Part shown: piece after piece, positions 32,705 to 43,590 of the stretch
How positions within the stretch are numbered: position 1 is the first letter of the stretch
Layout: every line of letters begins with the position of its first letter
Assembly: GCF_002914585.1 (NCBI RefSeq)
Contig: NZ_PDDM01000007.1
Location: forward strand, 124,001 to 188,000
Origin: Pseudanabaena sp. BC1403
Lineage (GTDB): Bacteria > Cyanobacteriota > Cyanobacteriia > Pseudanabaenales > Pseudanabaenaceae
DNA: 64,000 bases
Reading direction: 5' to 3'
Notes under the pieces: model-generated
Seen by the model: only the letters and a program-made list of their open reading frames with translations
The model's database searches: none
Told to the model about the DNA's origin: nothing
Program-made: the position numbers and the translations under genes

Positions 32705-34330
32705 ATGGGTGGGTTATTACAACGGTTACTTTTGAATATGTTAAGTCTCGAAAACTTCCCTTGGCTCACGTTTATCATTGCCTTCCCCATAGTTATGTCC
32801 CTCGTGGTTGCCTTTGTGCCAGACAAAGGTGACGGCAAAACCATTCGTTGGTTTGCACTCGTAGTTGGACTGATTGACTTTGCGGCGATCGCCTATGCCT
32901 TCTGCACAAAGTATGACTACAGCAACCCCAACCTCCAGCTCGTTGAGAGCTATGCATGGGTTCCACAACTGGGGCTAAATTGGTCAGTGGGCGTTGATGG
33001 ACTCTCGATGCCTTTGGTATTGCTGACTGGATTTATCACCACATTAGCAGTCTTGGCATCCTGGCCTGTCACCCTGAAGCCGCGCTTATTTTACTTTTTA
33101 TTGCTATCAATGTACGGCGCACAAATTGCCGTATTCGCTGTACAGGACATGTTGCTGTTTTTCCTAACATGGGAATTAGAGCTAATCCCTGTCTACCTCT
33201 TGCTATCAATCTGGGGGGGCTATAAGCGCCTATATGCCGCCACAAAGTTTATTCTTTACACTGCGATCGGTTCACTGTTTATCCTTGTGGCTGGTTTGGC
33301 GATGGCATTTTATGGCGACACCGTTACCTTTGATATGGCGGCACTTGCTCATAAAAACTATCCTCTTACCTTCCAACTGCTAGCCTACGGTGCATTCTTG
33401 ATTTCCTATGGGGTCAAGTTACCGATTTTTCCTTTGCATACATGGCTACCTGATGCTCATGGTGAAGCAACAGCACCAGTTCACATGCTGCTCGCTGGCA
33501 TTTTGCTAAAAATGGGTGGTTATGCTCTGATGCGGATGAATGCGGGCATGTTACCTGAAGCCCATGCTTACTTTGCCCCGATCCTAGTAATTCTGGGGAT
33601 TGTGAATATTATTTATGCGGCGCTTACCTCTTTTGCTCAGCGCAGTCTCAAACGCAAAATTGCATATTCTTCGATCTCACACATGGGATTTGTTTTGATC
33701 GGTTTAGCCTCATTTACCGATCTTGGTACTAGCGGTGCAATGTTGCAAATGATTTCGCATGGACTAATTGGCGCGAGCTTATTTTTCCTAGTCGGCGCAA
33801 CTTACGATCGCACTCATACTTTGATCCTTGATGAAATGGGCGGTGTCGGTCAGCAGATGCCAAAAATCTTTGCGATGTTTACCACTTGCTCTCTTGCGTC
33901 TCTAGCTTTGCCAGGGATGAGTGGTTTTGTGGCGGAGGTGATGATTTTTGTCGGTTTTGCCACTAGCGATGCCTATAGCGGCACGTTTAAAGTTATTGCT
34001 CTATTGCTGATGGCAGTGGGTGTGATTTTAACTCCCGTATATTTACTTTCAATGCTGCGTGAAATTTTCTACGGTAAAGAAAACACTGAACTTACATCCC
34101 ATCAAAATTTAGTGGATGCAGAACCTCGTGAAGTATTCATCATCACTTGTCTGTTGATTCCAATTATTGGGATTGGCTTCTATCCCAAAATCGTGACTCA
34201 AATCTATGATTCGACTACGACTCAGTTAGCGACAACTCTACGTAATGCGGTTCCTGCCCTAGCTAATAAACGTGATAACAAACGTTTGGCAAGTCTACAG
34301 GCTCAAGCTGCACCAAGTTTAAGCAAATAG
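32705..34330 (+). CDS. ndhD: NAD(P)H-quinone oxidoreductase subunit 4 (NdhD, NDH-1 chain 4)
   Basis: A 541-residue antiporter-like membrane subunit of thylakoid NDH-1 with about 14 helices. Key segments are [14 protein letters not shown] (functional Glu), [34 protein letters not shown] and [12 protein letters not shown]. It pumps protons in respiratory and cyclic electron flow. Which NdhD paralogue (D1/D2 respiratory or D3/D4 CO2-uptake) cannot be settled here, though the sequence reads like D1/D2. The start may instead be the ATG at 32738 ([10 protein letters not shown]), which fits known NdhD starts better. The gene stands alone. Confidence 0.94.
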
Positions 34331-36819: not shown

Positions 36820-38799
36820 CTAGAGTTTCATAGTCTCAACATACCAATCTTGAATTGATAAACCTGCTGTTTCAATTGCTCTATGACAAAGGCTATAGAT
36901 ATTTTTAGCTGAAAAGTTGGATTCAAAGTAAACACCATTTTTCAATTGTCTTGGACTTCTAAAAGTCGTTTGCTCCCATGCTAACAAACGAGGAAATTGT
37001 TCCATAATTTCTTTGAAATGCTCTGGCTCAAGATCTGCTAGTAAATTAAGTGTGGTTTCTAGAACCTCACGCCAGCTTTTTACAGAATATTCTTCTCCAA
37101 ACATACGAAGCAACTTAGGAGTACTTCCCGTTATATAGCTTTTTTTATCTTGCTGAAGAGAATCATCTCCAAAGTATTGCCATATATTTATGATTGAATC
37201 TGCTAATTTCTCAGCTCTAAATTCAATATCTTCTCTGCGCCATGTGTTTAGATTTTGGAAGTACGAATTTAATTCTAAATGACTATTTTGATATTCTTTT
37301 TTCTTGGTTAGAAAATCAGAATTAGAAAGTTCACCATTGTAAGCTGTAAGAGTCAAATTGCCAATTGTATGAATGAATAAATCATAGGTAATTTGCCAGT
37401 CCTGCCCTAGTCTATCTTTCCAAACATCACTTAAGGTTTGAGGCATAATATGTTCAATCGTCAGGTTGTCGAAACTAACTTGCTCTCTATGCCTGAAAGA
37501 TTCTTCAAGTGATTCTAGGATAAGCTTTGCCTTTTCAGTACGATTGCTGCCATACATTTTTACATCTAGCAGTCTTTCTCTAAATTCCGCGTCCTTTGGA
37601 TAGTCTTTAGTCTGCAAAACTATTTTAACTCTCTCAACAAATGAGTCAGATGCAATATCAACCTCTTTGGCAACTTGTGAATATAATAATGCAAAGATTC
37701 GGTTTAGCCCCCTCGTTTGAACATTGCAAACAAATCTGCGAAGCAGGAAATTTTCTAAAACTCGAAAAACTTCAACAAATTCATTTTCGGATATTCGCAG
37801 TTGCTTCCATTCATCATAGCAATTCAATAGAAATGGATAGACAGTTGCAACTTCTAATCGATTGATTCGTATTAAATGCTTTCTGATTTTTAAATTACTT
37901 TCTCTTTCTGGAGATAGCAGTCGAGAATAATAGTCGGCAAACTTATATAGATCTTGTAAATGTGATAATGCATCACTCTGGCTAATTTTTTCCTTAAGTT
38001 GAAAGTAGATGTCACTTTGTTTAACATCAATTCCATGTTTAGTTAGATAATGTCGAATATATTCCGTTAAATTTTCTCCAAGCAAATCTTGCATTGGTTG
38101 CCAATATTTTGTATAGATTGAATCCTGCTGCTCTATATGAATTCGCATAAAGAAATAGTTGCGAATCAAATCGGCTTGAGTCAAAGCTCTTCCCTTGGCG
38201 TTTAAGCTTTCAAACACAAGATAGGGATCATCATTAGCACTAAGAACAACACTAACAATGGAGAGACTACTACAGATGATTTTCTGAAGTTGTTGCAAAT
38301 CAATATTGAATTGCTTGATTTTCTTAAAGAAAAACGAATAACATTCAAGGATTGAGCTATTTATAATTAGCTCATCACCTTGAATCAATTTATGGAATAT
38401 TTCTCGGTCAACTTGTGTTGGTTGCAGTTTAAAGTAATCTACGCCATCTTCGTGAAGATTAGTTAAAATAGCATCAATTTTTGCCGATAATTTACTTTCC
38501 TCTGAGCGCATTGCATGATCTCGCAAAGCACAAAGCAAAATGAAAATAGTTGTTAATCTTTGTTGTCCATCAATGAGTAAGTATTTACTCACTCCTTCAG
38601 GTATGGAATTAGTAGGCATCGTCACGATCGAACCCATAAAATGAGTTCGTGGGGTTTCCAACTCACATAAGTCTATAAGATCATCCCAAAGCATTTGCCA
38701 TTCTGATTTCTTCCAGCTATAGGGACGCTGAAACAAAGGTACAACATACTGTTTAGTTCCCTCAATAATTTGTTGTAACTTTGTTTCTGATGCCTGCAT
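36820..38799 (-). CDS. DUF262 and DUF1524 domain protein (GmrSD-like)
   Basis: A 659-residue protein. The N-terminal DUF262 part (about 8-240) has VPLFQRPYSWKKSEW and the nucleotide-binding LIDGQQRLTTIF; the middle and C-terminal part carries a DUF1524 HNH-like nuclease (TIEHIMPQTLSDVW, then IGNLTLTAYNGELSNSDFLTKKK). This is the layout of the type IV restriction enzyme GmrSD and related anti-phage nucleases. About 130 residues after the HNH region are not recognised. The AT-rich composition and lack of HIP1 suggest transfer. A HicB-like gene lies on the other strand just upstream. Confidence 0.88.
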   Translation of the reverse strand: MQASETKLQQIIEGTKQYVVPLFQRPYSWKKSEWQMLWDDLIDLCELETPRTHFMGSIVTMPTNSIPEGVSKYLLIDGQQRLTTIFILLCALRDHAMRSEESKLSAKIDAILTNLHEDGVDYFKLQPTQVDREIFHKLIQGDELIINSSILECYSFFFKKIKQFNIDLQQLQKIICSSLSIVSVVLSANDDPYLVFESLNAKGRALTQADLIRNYFFMRIHIEQQDSIYTKYWQPMQDLLGENLTEYIRHYLTKHGIDVKQSDIYFQLKEKISQSDALSHLQDLYKFADYYSRLLSPERESNLKIRKHLIRINRLEVATVYPFLLNCYDEWKQLRISENEFVEVFRVLENFLLRRFVCNVQTRGLNRIFALLYSQVAKEVDIASDSFVERVKIVLQTKDYPKDAEFRERLLDVKMYGSNRTEKAKLILESLEESFRHREQVSFDNLTIEHIMPQTLSDVWKDRLGQDWQITYDLFIHTIGNLTLTAYNGELSNSDFLTKKKEYQNSHLELNSYFQNLNTWRREDIEFRAEKLADSIINIWQYFGDDSLQQDKKSYITGSTPKLLRMFGEEYSVKSWREVLETTLNLLADLEPEHFKEIMEQFPRLLAWEQTTFRSPRQLKNGVYFESNFSAKNIYSLCHRAIETAGLSIQDWYVETMKL

Positions 38800-39927: not shown

Positions 39928-39991
39928 TAAAGTCCGATTTAGTAAAGGCGATCGCATAGTGAGGTGCGTTACTAATGATATAAATGAGGCT

Positions 39992-41287
39992 ATGTATGAT
40001 CGCCTTACTTCTATAGCTTTTCTTAAGCAAATTTCTGCCGATCCCCAAAATCATGATCGCAGCGAAATTGTCGTGCCTTTGGGCGATCGCTCGATTACTT
40101 TGGGGCGCGATCCTATTTGTGAAGTGGCGATCGATATCAATATTTATGGCTCAGTGTCGCGCCGCCATGCTGAGATTCGTCCAATCTTTGTAAGACAAAA
40201 GTTTGAGGGTTGGGAAATTTGTGATCTTGACAGCGCCAATGGCACATTTATTAATGATCGCCGTTTATATAGTTGCTATCCACTCAAGCATGGCGATCGG
40301 ATTCAGTTAACTAAAGATGGCCCCCAATTTGTTTTTGAACAAGAGGCTAGTCCAGAAACAACTTTAGAAACTAATTATAATCTGCGTCCGCGATCGCAGA
40401 TTACAAGCATCACACTGACTAAGCTATTACCGATTTTCTCAAAGGGTAATGATCTTTGGGAAAAAGCCTATCTCCTCCCAGGAATTTTAACGGTGTTTTT
40501 TGTGGTGATGATGTTTGCTTTTTTGGGGCAACCGCAATTATTTAATCTAACGATTTCTGTATATATCAGCCTTGCAGCCTATTATTTCGTCTATCAGCTT
40601 TGTGGAAAGAATAAGCCTTGGTGGGTGATTTTAGGTTCGGCGATATTTACGGCTGCGATTCTCAGAAGTCCGATTTTAAATATTTTTCTCTGGTTCTTTT
40701 ATAAGGTCTTACCAGGAACTGCACCGACGGGGCAGGTAAGCTTTATAAATGTTTTGATTGCGATGTTTTTTGGGGCGGGCTTAATGGAGGAGTTGCTCAA
40801 GGCTTTGCCAGTATTTGCGCTCTGGTTTATGGGTTTGCGATTGGGAAAGAAATGGCGATCGCGTTTTGGTATTAGTGAGCCATTGGATGGAATTTTGATT
40901 GGCGCGGCTTCGGCAGTGGGTTTTACATTGACGGAAACTCTGGGGCTATATGTACCGAGTATTGTTCAAAGTATTAGTCAAACAGGTAGTTCAGAAATTG
41001 CCGAGCTTACGGGGTTGCAATTGTTGATTCCTCGTGTGCTTGGCTCAGTGGCGGGACATATGGCATATAGCGGTTATTTCGGCTATTTCATTGGTCTGAG
41101 CATCATGAAGCCTTCTCTCCGCTGGCAAATTCTCACGATTGGATATCTCAGTTCGGCTTTGCTTCATGCCCTTTGGAATACGAGTGCCCTAGTAAGTTTT
41201 TGGCTTTTGGCAATAGTGGGAGGTCTTTCCTATGCATTTCTAGTAGCTGCAATTCTCAAAGCCCATAGTTTTTCTTCAAAGGTATAG
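39992..41287 (+). CDS. FHA domain fused to PrsW-family intramembrane metalloprotease
   Basis: About 431 residues from ATG 39992 (a GTG at 39959 is possible but adds an unlikely tail). The N-terminal FHA domain (about 25-115) has LGRDPICEVAID, SRRHAEI and DLDSANGTFINDR, the phosphothreonine-binding pattern. After a linker come about eight membrane helices with the protease motifs AGLMEELLKALP (EE-x-x-K) and SALLHALWN, and PLDGILIGAASAVGFTLTE. PrsW-type proteases cleave anti-sigma factors in other bacteria. The fusion suggests the protease is controlled by serine/threonine phosphorylation. Confidence 0.87.
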   Translation: MYDRLTSIAFLKQISADPQNHDRSEIVVPLGDRSITLGRDPICEVAIDINIYGSVSRRHAEIRPIFVRQKFEGWEICDLDSANGTFINDRRLYSCYPLKHGDRIQLTKDGPQFVFEQEASPETTLETNYNLRPRSQITSITLTKLLPIFSKGNDLWEKAYLLPGILTVFFVVMMFAFLGQPQLFNLTISVYISLAAYYFVYQLCGKNKPWWVILGSAIFTAAILRSPILNIFLWFFYKVLPGTAPTGQVSFINVLIAMFFGAGLMEELLKALPVFALWFMGLRLGKKWRSRFGISEPLDGILIGAASAVGFTLTETLGLYVPSIVQSISQTGSSEIAELTGLQLLIPRVLGSVAGHMAYSGYFGYFIGLSIMKPSLRWQILTIGYLSSALLHALWNTSALVSFWLLAIVGGLSYAFLVAAILKAHSFSSKV

Positions 41288-41321
41288 TGAGATTAACTGT
41301 TAAAGTTGGAAAAATTCATAT

Positions 41322-42638
41322 ATGAATAATCTAGCCGACATCAAAGAAAGAATTGCGCTTGATGGATTTGCGGTAATTGATAATATTTTTAAAGACGAAG
41401 AAATAGATAAATTATTTCAAGTCATTTCACAGATTGATAGCTCTAAGCCAACTTTTCGTAAAAATAGTGATTTATTTGCAATAAGACAATTTTTTAAAGA
41501 AGTACCTGCATCAGTTGATATAGTTTTTAATGACAAACTCAACTCAGTAATTTCAGGGATATTTGGGAATGAATTTTTTGTTGTAAAGTCTATATACTTT
41601 GATAAACCTGAGGGCTCAAATTGGTTTGTATCATACCATCAGGACTTGACGATTTCAGTAGATAAAAAGATTGATATTGAAGGATTTAAGTCATGGACAA
41701 TCAAACAAAATCAGTTTTCTGTTCAACCGCCAATAGCAATATTAAAAGACAATTTCACAATTCGTATTCATCTTGATGATACAAATGAAGAAAATGGAGC
41801 TTTAAAAGTTATCCCAAAATCACATAACAAAGGCATTTGCAGACCTGAGAGCATTGATTGGACAACTCAATCTGAAAATGTTTGTAGGCTTAAAAAAGGT
41901 GGTATCATGCTCATGAAGCCATTACTTCTACATTCATCTAGTAAAACGACAAATAAGAATAAACGTCGAGTTATCCATATAGAATTTAGTAGAAGTTCTT
42001 TACCAAACCGCTTGAATTGGTCAGAGCTTATGATAGTCCAAGCTTCAGCAAAATCTACAGAATTAGATAAGATACCTAAAGAGACGGAAACTCAGCACTT
42101 TGTTTTTCCGAACAGCTATTCATGGAAAGAATTTAAGACACTTTCTGCTTTAATCGGTGATTCACGTAATATCCATCTTAATTATCTTGACGGCACTATC
42201 GAGATTATGACCACATCTGCTGCCCATGAAATCATCGTGCATTTACTCGCGATGTTATTGGGGATTTACTTTGCAGAAAAGGATATCGATTTTATTCCTA
42301 CGGGTAGCGCAACGTTGGAGTCAGAGACCAAGGGAGCAAGCGTTGAGCCAGATCTATCTTTTTGTTTTGGAAATAAATTAGGCGATCGCGATTTGGCAAT
42401 TGAGGTGATTTTCACGAGTGGCAATGTGACGAAGTTAGAACGTTATCGCCGCTTTAATACAAAGGAAGTTTGGTTTTGGGAAGATGGTAAGTTTTCGATC
42501 TATCGATTACGCGAGGATGGCTATGAGACAATCGCACAAAGTGAATGTTTGCCTAATCTCGATTTGGCTTTGCTTGCCCGTTGTTTATTGATGGCTGAAC
42601 CAAAATCTGCACTCAAAGCATTTCAGCAAGCACTATAG
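41322..42638 (+). CDS. Phytanoyl-CoA dioxygenase-like protein fused to a Uma2 nuclease domain
   Basis: A 438-residue chimaera. Residues about 1-235 are a PhyH-type Fe(II)/2-oxoglutarate oxygenase: His106-x-Asp108 (YHQDLT), the conserved RIHLDDTNEENGALKVIPKS loop, distal His204 (LLLHSS) and RRVIHIEF. Residues about 263-438 are a Uma2/DUF820 nuclease-like domain beginning YSWKEFKTLSAL, with YLDGTIEIMTTSAAHE, VEPDLSF (Asp344) and LAIEVIF (Glu361). The reading frame is continuous with a short linker (about 238-262). The first part is AT-rich and free of HIP1, the second contains one. The two halves could be a recent fusion of neighbouring genes. Confidence 0.85.
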   Translation: MNNLADIKERIALDGFAVIDNIFKDEEIDKLFQVISQIDSSKPTFRKNSDLFAIRQFFKEVPASVDIVFNDKLNSVISGIFGNEFFVVKSIYFDKPEGSNWFVSYHQDLTISVDKKIDIEGFKSWTIKQNQFSVQPPIAILKDNFTIRIHLDDTNEENGALKVIPKSHNKGICRPESIDWTTQSENVCRLKKGGIMLMKPLLLHSSSKTTNKNKRRVIHIEFSRSSLPNRLNWSELMIVQASAKSTELDKIPKETETQHFVFPNSYSWKEFKTLSALIGDSRNIHLNYLDGTIEIMTTSAAHEIIVHLLAMLLGIYFAEKDIDFIPTGSATLESETKGASVEPDLSFCFGNKLGDRDLAIEVIFTSGNVTKLERYRRFNTKEVWFWEDGKFSIYRLREDGYETIAQSECLPNLDLALLARCLLMAEPKSALKAFQQAL

Positions 42639-43550
42639 ACGGTATTGTCGATAGATCTCACTAGCAGCTCGATGCAAGAGGGAATGTCGATAAACTAGCG
42701 ATCGCATGTCTTCGCAATAACCACCACCGATCACGCAGCCAACGGGAAAACCTTGAGAAATACAAGTACTCAAAACCTGCATGTCGCGCCGAAATATACC
42801 TGCATCTGTGAGAGCCAATTTGCCAAGACGATCGCCTATATGTGGATCTACTCCTGCATCGTAAAGCACTAAGTCGGGCTGAAATTCGGTTAATAAATCT
42901 GGTAAATAATTAGCAAGAGTGCGTAAATATTCATCATCTTCCATTCCTTCGCGCAGAGGTACATCGCGATCGCTAATTTGTTTAATCGATGGAAAATTAA
43001 TCTGGCAGTGCATTGAGAAGGTAAACACATTTGGCTCATCCTGAAAAATAAGAGCCGTGCCATCGCCTTGATGGACATCCAGATCCACGATCAGGATTTT
43101 TTTAACCAGTCCTTCTTTTAGCAATACTCGCGAGGCGATCGCAAGATCATTAAATATACAAAATCCTGAACCATAGCTAGGGAAAGCATGATGCGTTCCT
43201 CCTGCTGTATTGCAAGCTAAGCCGTGTGCTAAGGCTAGCCGCGCAGTTAATAATGTGCCGCCCACTGCGATTCTGGTGCGATAGGCAAGCTCTGGACTCC
43301 AAGGTAATCCGATCCTGCGCTGAGCTTTAGGATCGAGATTCCCAGTCCAATATGCGTCAACATATTCGCTATCATGTACTAAGGCGATCGCCTCTAAATC
43401 TGGTAACTCTGGTGTAAAAAACTGCTCTAATCGCGCTACCCCATCGACTATCAGCATCTCATGGAGCAAGCGAAATTTTTCCATCGGGAATCGATTGGTA
43501 TTAGCGATCGGCGCGACATAATTGGGATGATAGATCAGTGGTAAATCCAT
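42633..43550 (-). CDS. Histone deacetylase-family amidohydrolase
   Basis: About 305 residues; the start is set at MDLPLIYHP (43550) because the upstream in-frame Met at 43577 lies in a terminator hairpin. The metal-dependent deacetylase pattern is present: GGTHHAFPSYGSGFCIFND (His-His and Asp), DLDVHQGDGT (metal Asp/His), HCQINFP, YDAGVDPHIGDRLG (metal Asp) and GGGYCEDM. Bacterial members deacetylate acetylpolyamines or acetylated proteins. Its stop overlaps the convergent dioxygenase-Uma2 stop by 6 bp. Confidence 0.93.
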   Translation of the reverse strand: MDLPLIYHPNYVAPIANTNRFPMEKFRLLHEMLIVDGVARLEQFFTPELPDLEAIALVHDSEYVDAYWTGNLDPKAQRRIGLPWSPELAYRTRIAVGGTLLTARLALAHGLACNTAGGTHHAFPSYGSGFCIFNDLAIASRVLLKEGLVKKILIVDLDVHQGDGTALIFQDEPNVFTFSMHCQINFPSIKQISDRDVPLREGMEDDEYLRTLANYLPDLLTEFQPDLVLYDAGVDPHIGDRLGKLALTDAGIFRRDMQVLSTCISQGFPVGCVIGGGYCEDMRSLVYRHSLLHRAASEIYRQYRL

Positions 43551-43563
43551 AGTTTTTACCAAA

Positions 43564-43590
43564 AAAGAACCGTGCAATGCACGGTTCTTT
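43564..43590 (-). terminator. Terminator of the zeta-carotene desaturase gene
   Basis: AAAGAACCGTGCA then TGCACGGTTCTTT, 3 bp past the crtQ stop. It also lies in the 5' region of the deacetylase gene. Confidence 0.88.

Follow-up and report, generated by a model that had tools for sequence, protein, structure and literature searches.

A rare fusion of PhyH oxygenase and Uma2 domains conserved in two Pseudanabaena genomes

We found a gene in Pseudanabaena in which a PhyH-type oxygenase and a Uma2 domain are encoded in one open frame. The fusion is genuine, conserved in two genomes and rare, and it is a new pairing of two known families. Sequence comparison suggests that the PhyH half was captured from Bacteroidota ahead of a resident Uma2 gene. 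The product is best read as a true two-domain protein in which a flexible linker connects domains that each retain their own activity. Since donor group, empty site, exact joining codon and later persistence are all readable from sequence, this would be a well-resolved cross-phylum gene capture. The gene lies in the window (the whole 64-kb stretch of DNA that was analysed), which is part of a 5.5-Mb genome (G000) whose nearest named relatives are Pseudanabaena. Coordinates are collected in Table 1.

Table 1. Positions of the fused gene, its parts and flanks, and of other fusions of the same PhyH clade.
Feature	Position	Strand	Evidence
PhyH-Uma2 fused gene, 438 aa	41322..42638	+	ATG start, single open frame, both Pfam domains
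PhyH half, residues 1-236, Fe(II)/2-oxoglutarate oxygenase fold, Bacteroidota-like	41322..42029	+	PF05721, tree, fold matches
Metal-binding HxD motif, His106 and Asp108	41637..41645	+	His106 in 43/44 and Asp108 in 44/44 aligned rows
Third metal ligand, His204	41931..41933	+	44/44 aligned rows
Arg215-Arg216, probable 2-oxoglutarate carboxylate binder	41964..41969	+	Arg215 in 43/44 and Arg216 in 44/44 aligned rows
Codon 237 ATG, position of probable former Uma2 start	42030..42032	+	Junctions, codon alignment, 5' alignment
Linker, residues 237-265, former Uma2 N-terminal tail, predicted flexible	42030..42116	+	pLDDT below 50 at residues 239-257
Uma2 body, residues 266-438, PD-(D/E)XK-type fold	42117..42638	+	PF05685, PDC-S17, fold matches
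Probable nuclease residues Asp344, Glu361, Lys371	42351..42434	+	Conservation; catalytic role putative
Upstream flank, FHA-PrsW protein, left edge of empty site	39959..41287	+	Pfam; left of Uma2 in 7/7 relatives compared
Downstream flank, histone-deacetylase-family gene, convergent	42633..43577	-	Pfam; overlaps fusion stop by 6 bases
WYL/WCX-PhyH fusions, six Bacteroidota proteins	L075:3951-5693, L142:853-2655, L159-L162		
PhyH-FMN_bind_2 fusion	L141:791-2140		In-frame Met at join, parallel to the PhyH-Uma2 join

An earlier note on this DNA had described an uninterrupted frame uniting the two domains, and the frame held up on three counts: the open reading frame has 438 codons and no internal stop, both Pfam families match, and a second genome carries the same gene. 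The PhyH match (PF05721) spans residues 14-216 and profile positions 4-212 of 213 (53.4 bits against a cut-off of 22), and the Uma2 match (PF05685) spans residues 268-407 and profile positions 1-152 of 172 (54.9 bits against a cut-off of 27). The note had also pointed to a change in composition between the halves, which is real, with GC and GC3 lower in the PhyH half (31.6% and 23.3%) than in the Uma2 body (41.0% and 37.6%). The HIP1 sequence (GCGATCGC) is indeed confined to the Uma2 half, with a single intragenic site at 42382, but the window holds 110 sites, about one per 580 bases, so that absence from the 708-base PhyH half is weak evidence.

The metal ligands of the oxygenase are where the note had placed them, according to an alignment of 44 of the 49 PhyH rows (the window and the second genome included; L057, L074, L106, L117 and L131 left out). 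We take His106 and Asp108 to be iron ligands and His204 to be the third metal ligand, as in the PhyH family, and by the same family analogy Arg215-Arg216 probably bind the 2-oxoglutarate carboxylate. In the AlphaFold model of the fusion, residues 1-230 have block-mean pLDDT values of 83-98. The top Foldseek hits of this model were mostly solved 2-oxoglutarate oxygenases (E about 1e-10, target-normalised TM about 0.4-0.7), supporting a double-stranded beta-helix fold. Among them are AviO1 (4xaa), SnoN (5ep9), proline hydroxylase H11 (7dt0), HygX, EvdMO1 and MysH, and small-molecule oxygenases make up most of the 50 fold matches listed, their substrates being judged from entry titles. The NCBIfam models for chlorinating enzymes and ectoine hydroxylase scored far below their cut-offs.

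The Uma2 half resembles the Uma2/DUF820/COG4636 family (PF05685, PDC-S17) in being a whole domain with conserved Asp, Glu and Lys and the fold of 1wdj and 3ot2. Across the 32 rows of the Uma2 alignment, window included, the Asp is invariant and the Glu and Lys are conserved in at least 90% (alignment positions 108, 125 and 135 for Asp344, Glu361 and Lys371); presumably these are the catalytic residues of a PD-(D/E)XK active site. Foldseek with this half alone matched 6okh (E 4.3e-7), 1wdj (E 6.1e-6) and 3ot2 (E 5e-5, labelled DUF820). The family is abundant, with at least 80 matches in the window's own genome and at least 34-89 across 26 Pseudanabaena genomes. The fusion differs from these in its added N-terminal oxygenase, the Uma2 frames of the genus being no longer than 257 aa among the matches listed. 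A 413-aa Uma2 frame in genome G050 contains a pair of Uma2-like genes, each of 194 aa.

PADLOC matched the Uma2 half to the candidate model PDC-S17 (E 1.9e-70) and weakly to PDC-S03; it matched no verified anti-phage defence system, and the candidate models matched only in this half. A defence role was rejected on these candidate models. In the literature, Uma2 is described as probably a solo toxin, predicted to be a PD-(D/E)XK endonuclease (PMC2701414), and as a family of unknown function expanded in cyanobacteria (PMC1274311); 1wdj is cited as a DUF820 structure (PMC1913061), and a DUF820 protein is located in a hydrogenase operon (PMC4963859). Through the fusion, one of many cyanobacterial Uma2 proteins, members of a family without firm function, gains a testable partner domain.

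The fusion model as a whole has a mean pLDDT of 88.6 and a pTM of 0.58, and it describes two domains on a free linker whose mutual placement is undefined. In one alignment, A1, the C-termini of PhyH proteins were drawn onto the start of Uma2, and the model may be affected by this around residue 268.

The second copy is in Pseudanabaena sp. 'Roaring Creek' (RC; NZ_LIRE01000666.1, locus L039, genome G004), which carries the whole fusion at L039:4372-5685. It is 80% identical to the window copy over residues 1-438, with no stops and no gaps. Among the listed matches of 58 genomes (the window's own included), only these two were full-length fusions, and a pattern-seeded contig search of 74 loci matched both halves in RC only. 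Plasmids, viral contigs and 395 Bacteroidota genomes gave no full-length fusion, and no PhyH-Uma2 architecture was found in unrelated genera across the 58 genomes, the 74 loci, 388 genomes of the class, the plasmids, the viral contigs and the Bacteroidota set. The earlier suggestion that no established family has this pairing thus agrees with the searches, and we found no published report of a PhyH-Uma2 fusion in literature that included few subscription papers. The fusion is preceded by a spacer of about 190 bases in RC and by one of 34 bases in the window; the RC spacer contains two terminator-like G+C-rich hairpins (L039:4192-4329).

The best stand-alone matches to the PhyH half are from Bacteroidota, at 41-66% identity and mostly 53-66% (the lowest, 41%, is L075). 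Stand-alone PF05721 proteins of Pedobacter, Flavobacterium and Chitinophagaceae share with it the HxD...H ligands and a terminal W-S/A-E motif, which in the fusion occupies residues 233-235, just before the join. They differ in that most are independent genes, about 240 codons long and without a Uma2 fusion; where intact, they extend from a few to a dozen residues beyond the point of the join. In a midpoint-rooted tree of 49 PhyH rows with 15 open inner branches, the two fused halves grouped together (100/95) and then with a Chitinophagaceae gene (95/95), and the 13 other cyanobacterial rows formed a separate group (94/99). The tree left out L078, L104, L107, L121 and L130 as too short, skipped L113 and L114 as duplicates of the fusions, and was built without loci lacking a hit at 1e-8, among them L108-L112, L128 and L129.

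Within the cyanobacterial class, a PhyH match was present in 17 of 388 genomes. Besides the two fusions, these were 15 genomes with matches at 26-53% identity and no long PhyH frame, the exception being a weak 71-residue match with three stops. A cyanobacterial donor was rejected on these low identities and on the separate placement in the tree. The surroundings of the Bacteroidota genes showed no conserved context by eye in eight loci, except that two Pedobacter loci were alike. Some Bacteroidota copies are split into two frames (L074, L078 and L104), reflecting either gene decay or sequencing errors.

The site without the oxygenase is preserved in six Pseudanabaena genomes (G010 ULC068bin1, G005 SR411, G013 UBA1465, G020, G002 and G021), which have the Uma2 gene but not PhyH. 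Their Uma2 proteins are 84-90% identical to the window's and are encoded directly behind the same FHA-PrsW gene. The deacetylase gene adjoins Uma2 in six of the seven relatives compared (five of the six unfused); the exception is G010, which has a biotin-carboxylase/carboxyltransferase gene in its place. Because Uma2 stands alone in six relatives and the PhyH half is Bacteroidota-like, the two were apparently united by transfer. Four Bacteroidota genomes with a stand-alone PhyH were searched for Uma2, and two had a match elsewhere in the genome, none of them fused. One of these two is G388, which holds the PhyH gene most closely related to that of the fusion; its Uma2 match lies on the opposite strand, about 7 kb away from that gene, a proximity that we take as coincidence because the fused Uma2 is so similar to the resident Pseudanabaena gene. 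The FHA-PrsW gene itself fuses an FHA domain to a PrsW intramembrane protease, and a restriction gene of the GmrSD type, with Pfam matches to GmrSD_N and GmrSD_C, lies on the minus strand at 36820-38799, about 2.5 kb upstream of the fusion.

These comparisons modify the origin proposed in the earlier note, a recent join of two neighbouring genes through loss of a stop. A join did occur. The two genes were apparently not neighbours, given the solitary Uma2 in six relatives and the Bacteroidota-like PhyH, and the join was probably not recent, as the PhyH half has about the same dS as other genes. An ancestral adjacent pair losing its stop is likewise not supported, the Uma2 gene being alone at a syntenic locus in the six relatives. 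The note had named relatives that always carry two genes as a result that would count against the fusion; no adjacent pair was seen in the loci read, a reading that was unsystematic, and the arrangement in G388 came closest to one.

The join can be placed at a single codon. The probable Uma2 start in five of the six unfused relatives reads GTG-ATT/ATC-GCT-CAA, and fusion codons 237-240 (ATG-ATA-GTC-CAA in the window, ATG-ATT-TTC-CAA in RC) align with this GTG start; the Uma2 gene of G021 has a shorter 5' end than in the other unfused relatives. Ahead of the GTG, these five share conserved sequence to which nothing in either fusion corresponds. A consensus scan for promoters covered three unfused relatives (G013, G005 and G010). 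Of these, only G013 had a plus-strand promoter-like site within the 60 bases preceding Uma2; G005 had none there, and the sole plus-strand site of G010 was further upstream, inside the FHA-PrsW gene. The same scan found no plus-strand site in the window at 41100-42800 or in L039:4000-5700, and so none before either fusion. Loss of a Uma2 promoter is therefore not supported by the scan.

Between the window and RC, dN/dS is 0.146 for PhyH, 0.224 for the 29-codon linker and 0.073 for the Uma2 body, which indicates that both halves are under purifying selection. The fusion is probably old, since the PhyH dS of 1.08-1.09 is about that of other genes (lysC 1.24, ndhD 1.32, prsW 1.04, the deacetylase gene 0.98; Nei-Gojobori with Jukes-Cantor). 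The comparison is a rough one, all these values being close to saturation. A recent transfer of the fusion between lineages is disfavoured, since the PhyH dS is not clearly below that of other genes at this near-saturated level. The listed start of the ndhD frame at 32705-34330 is probably too far upstream: stops occur within the matched range in seven relatives, and the compared codons are free of them when the first 11 are omitted.

The genomes that carry the fusion are not nearest relatives. A tree of lysC, ndhD and prsW gave (RC,(G005,(window,G010))) with support of 1.000 at these forks, and since the unfused G010 and G005 are nearer to the window than RC is, two losses or recombination are needed. 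The single-gene trees conflict, which points to recombination in the region: the Uma2 body placed the window with G010 and RC with G005, leaving the fusions apart, and the deacetylase gene united the window and RC against the species tree (0.978 and 0.989), G010 having no such gene. In the first 22 codons of the linker, the window is identical to RC at 50 of 66 positions, to G005 at 50 and to G010 at 49. RC matches the window at 50 of 66 positions and G005 at 41 in these first Uma2 codons, and over codons 61-202 it is closest to G005 (386 of 426). These counts suggest a recombination break inside Uma2, with the window's first 22 codons equally near the unfused genes and RC. A PhyH dS like that of other genes is consistent with a single fusion event in the common ancestor of the four; in G005 and G010 the unfused allele would then have persisted or been regained by recombination.

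Members of the same PhyH clade have been joined to other proteins elsewhere. The order of genome G617 comprises 326 genomes, 59 of them with a PhyH match, and in six the match lies in a frame longer than 300 aa: G448 encodes PhyH-FMN_bind_2, and G617, G788, G937, G961 and G1048 encode WYL-WCX-PhyH. An additional WYL-PhyH fusion is present in Agaribacillus (L075). The WYL fusions are alike in joining the same PhyH clade to another protein and differ in that the partner is an N-terminal WYL/WCX regulator, with PhyH C-terminal. The G448 fusion is closer in plan, its N-terminal PhyH being joined near the natural end to the in-frame Met of the next domain; it differs in having FMN_bind_2 (PF04299) instead of Uma2. 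With three partners (Uma2, WYL and FMN_bind_2) at least three joins are implied, and an oxygenase clade joined to at least three different partners is thereby brought to light. No published report of a WYL domain paired with phytanoyl-CoA dioxygenase was found, again with few subscription papers covered.

We consider it reasonably probable that a Bacteroidota PhyH gene was joined in frame ahead of the resident Uma2 and that the product is one protein in which each domain keeps its ancestral activity. In an ancestor of several Pseudanabaena lineages, the PhyH gene would have been inserted between the FHA-PrsW gene and Uma2, losing its last codons and stop and displacing the sequence ahead of Uma2, and would have been joined in frame at what sequence comparison indicates was probably the Uma2 start codon. 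As predicted, the product would consist of two intact domains, a 2-oxoglutarate oxygenase and a Uma2 PD-(D/E)XK domain, connected by a flexible stretch of about 20 residues. The oxygenase would hydroxylate a small molecule and the Uma2 domain would keep its own nuclease-like role, the join mainly providing one expression signal and one-to-one dosage for both. Against this reading weigh the unfused state of G010 and G005, the Uma2-body tree that leaves the fusions apart and the deacetylase tree that unites them against the species tree, the ambiguous identities in the linker, and a promoter scan that does not show loss of a Uma2 promoter. An assembly or sequencing artefact, which the earlier note had raised, or contamination by Bacteroidota DNA might explain an AT-rich, Bacteroidota-like PhyH half, but RC has the identical architecture and the window copy is embedded in a 197-kb contig, flanked on either side by syntenic Pseudanabaena genes; with this second genome and the synteny we rejected such an error, which is extremely improbable. 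The recurrence of the frame, the join and both catalytic sets without gaps in RC, at a PhyH dS of about 1.1, also goes beyond chance. A decaying or neutral join that carries the PhyH half as a functionless passenger would be in keeping with the higher dN/dS of PhyH than of Uma2 and with the unfused alleles still kept by close relatives; it is highly improbable for a sequence whose dN/dS is far below 1 at this divergence, whose catalytic residues are retained and which has no stops or indels in either copy.

The gene might instead give two products, the full fusion and a free Uma2 started at codon 237, which is ATG in both fusions and GTG in five unfused relatives, at the probable ancestral start. 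We think this unlikely: in both genomes the linker continues the reading frame of the PhyH half, no clear Shine-Dalgarno sequence precedes 42030 in either fusion by eye (a weak point, as the unfused genes likewise have none), and no plus-strand promoter-like site lies inside the PhyH half of either fusion (also weak, with none before the fusion either). In a broader reading, the PhyH clade would be a recurrent fusion module whose reaction or substrate controls Uma2, WYL or FMN_bind_2, so that the Pseudanabaena protein would be an oxygen- and 2-oxoglutarate-responsive nuclease; this seems quite unlikely to us. Very unlikely, in our judgement, is a joint enzyme in which the oxygenase modifies a nucleic acid or regulator and Uma2 acts on the product, whether as the modify-and-cut enzyme that the earlier note had raised or as an oxygen- or 2-oxoglutarate-gated nuclease. 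Selection on both active sites within a single chain, the fusions of the clade to WYL regulators and an FMN_bind_2 protein, the match of the Uma2 half to a candidate defence model and the fold match ranked second for the fusion model, a chain of a trypanosomal RNA-editing complex (8fni_14, E 3.8e-11), would all accord with it. Weighing against it are the predominance of small-molecule oxygenases, by entry titles, among the fold matches listed, the undefined relative placement of the domains (pTM 0.58, linker pLDDT below 50), the many other Uma2 matches in this genome and the short Uma2 frames among the matches listed for the genus, and the six relatives that retain Uma2 without PhyH.

Other PhyH genes of the genus are separate from Uma2 where we looked. 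A search with the PhyH family gave some match in 11 of 26 genomes. The second PhyH of the window's genome (L132) had no Uma2 by Pfam, and the PhyH frames of G020 in L133 had none by eye. The latter locus (L133:997-5866) holds four neighbouring PhyH-like genes, one of them encoding 651 aa with a C-terminal half that looks methyltransferase-like by eye.
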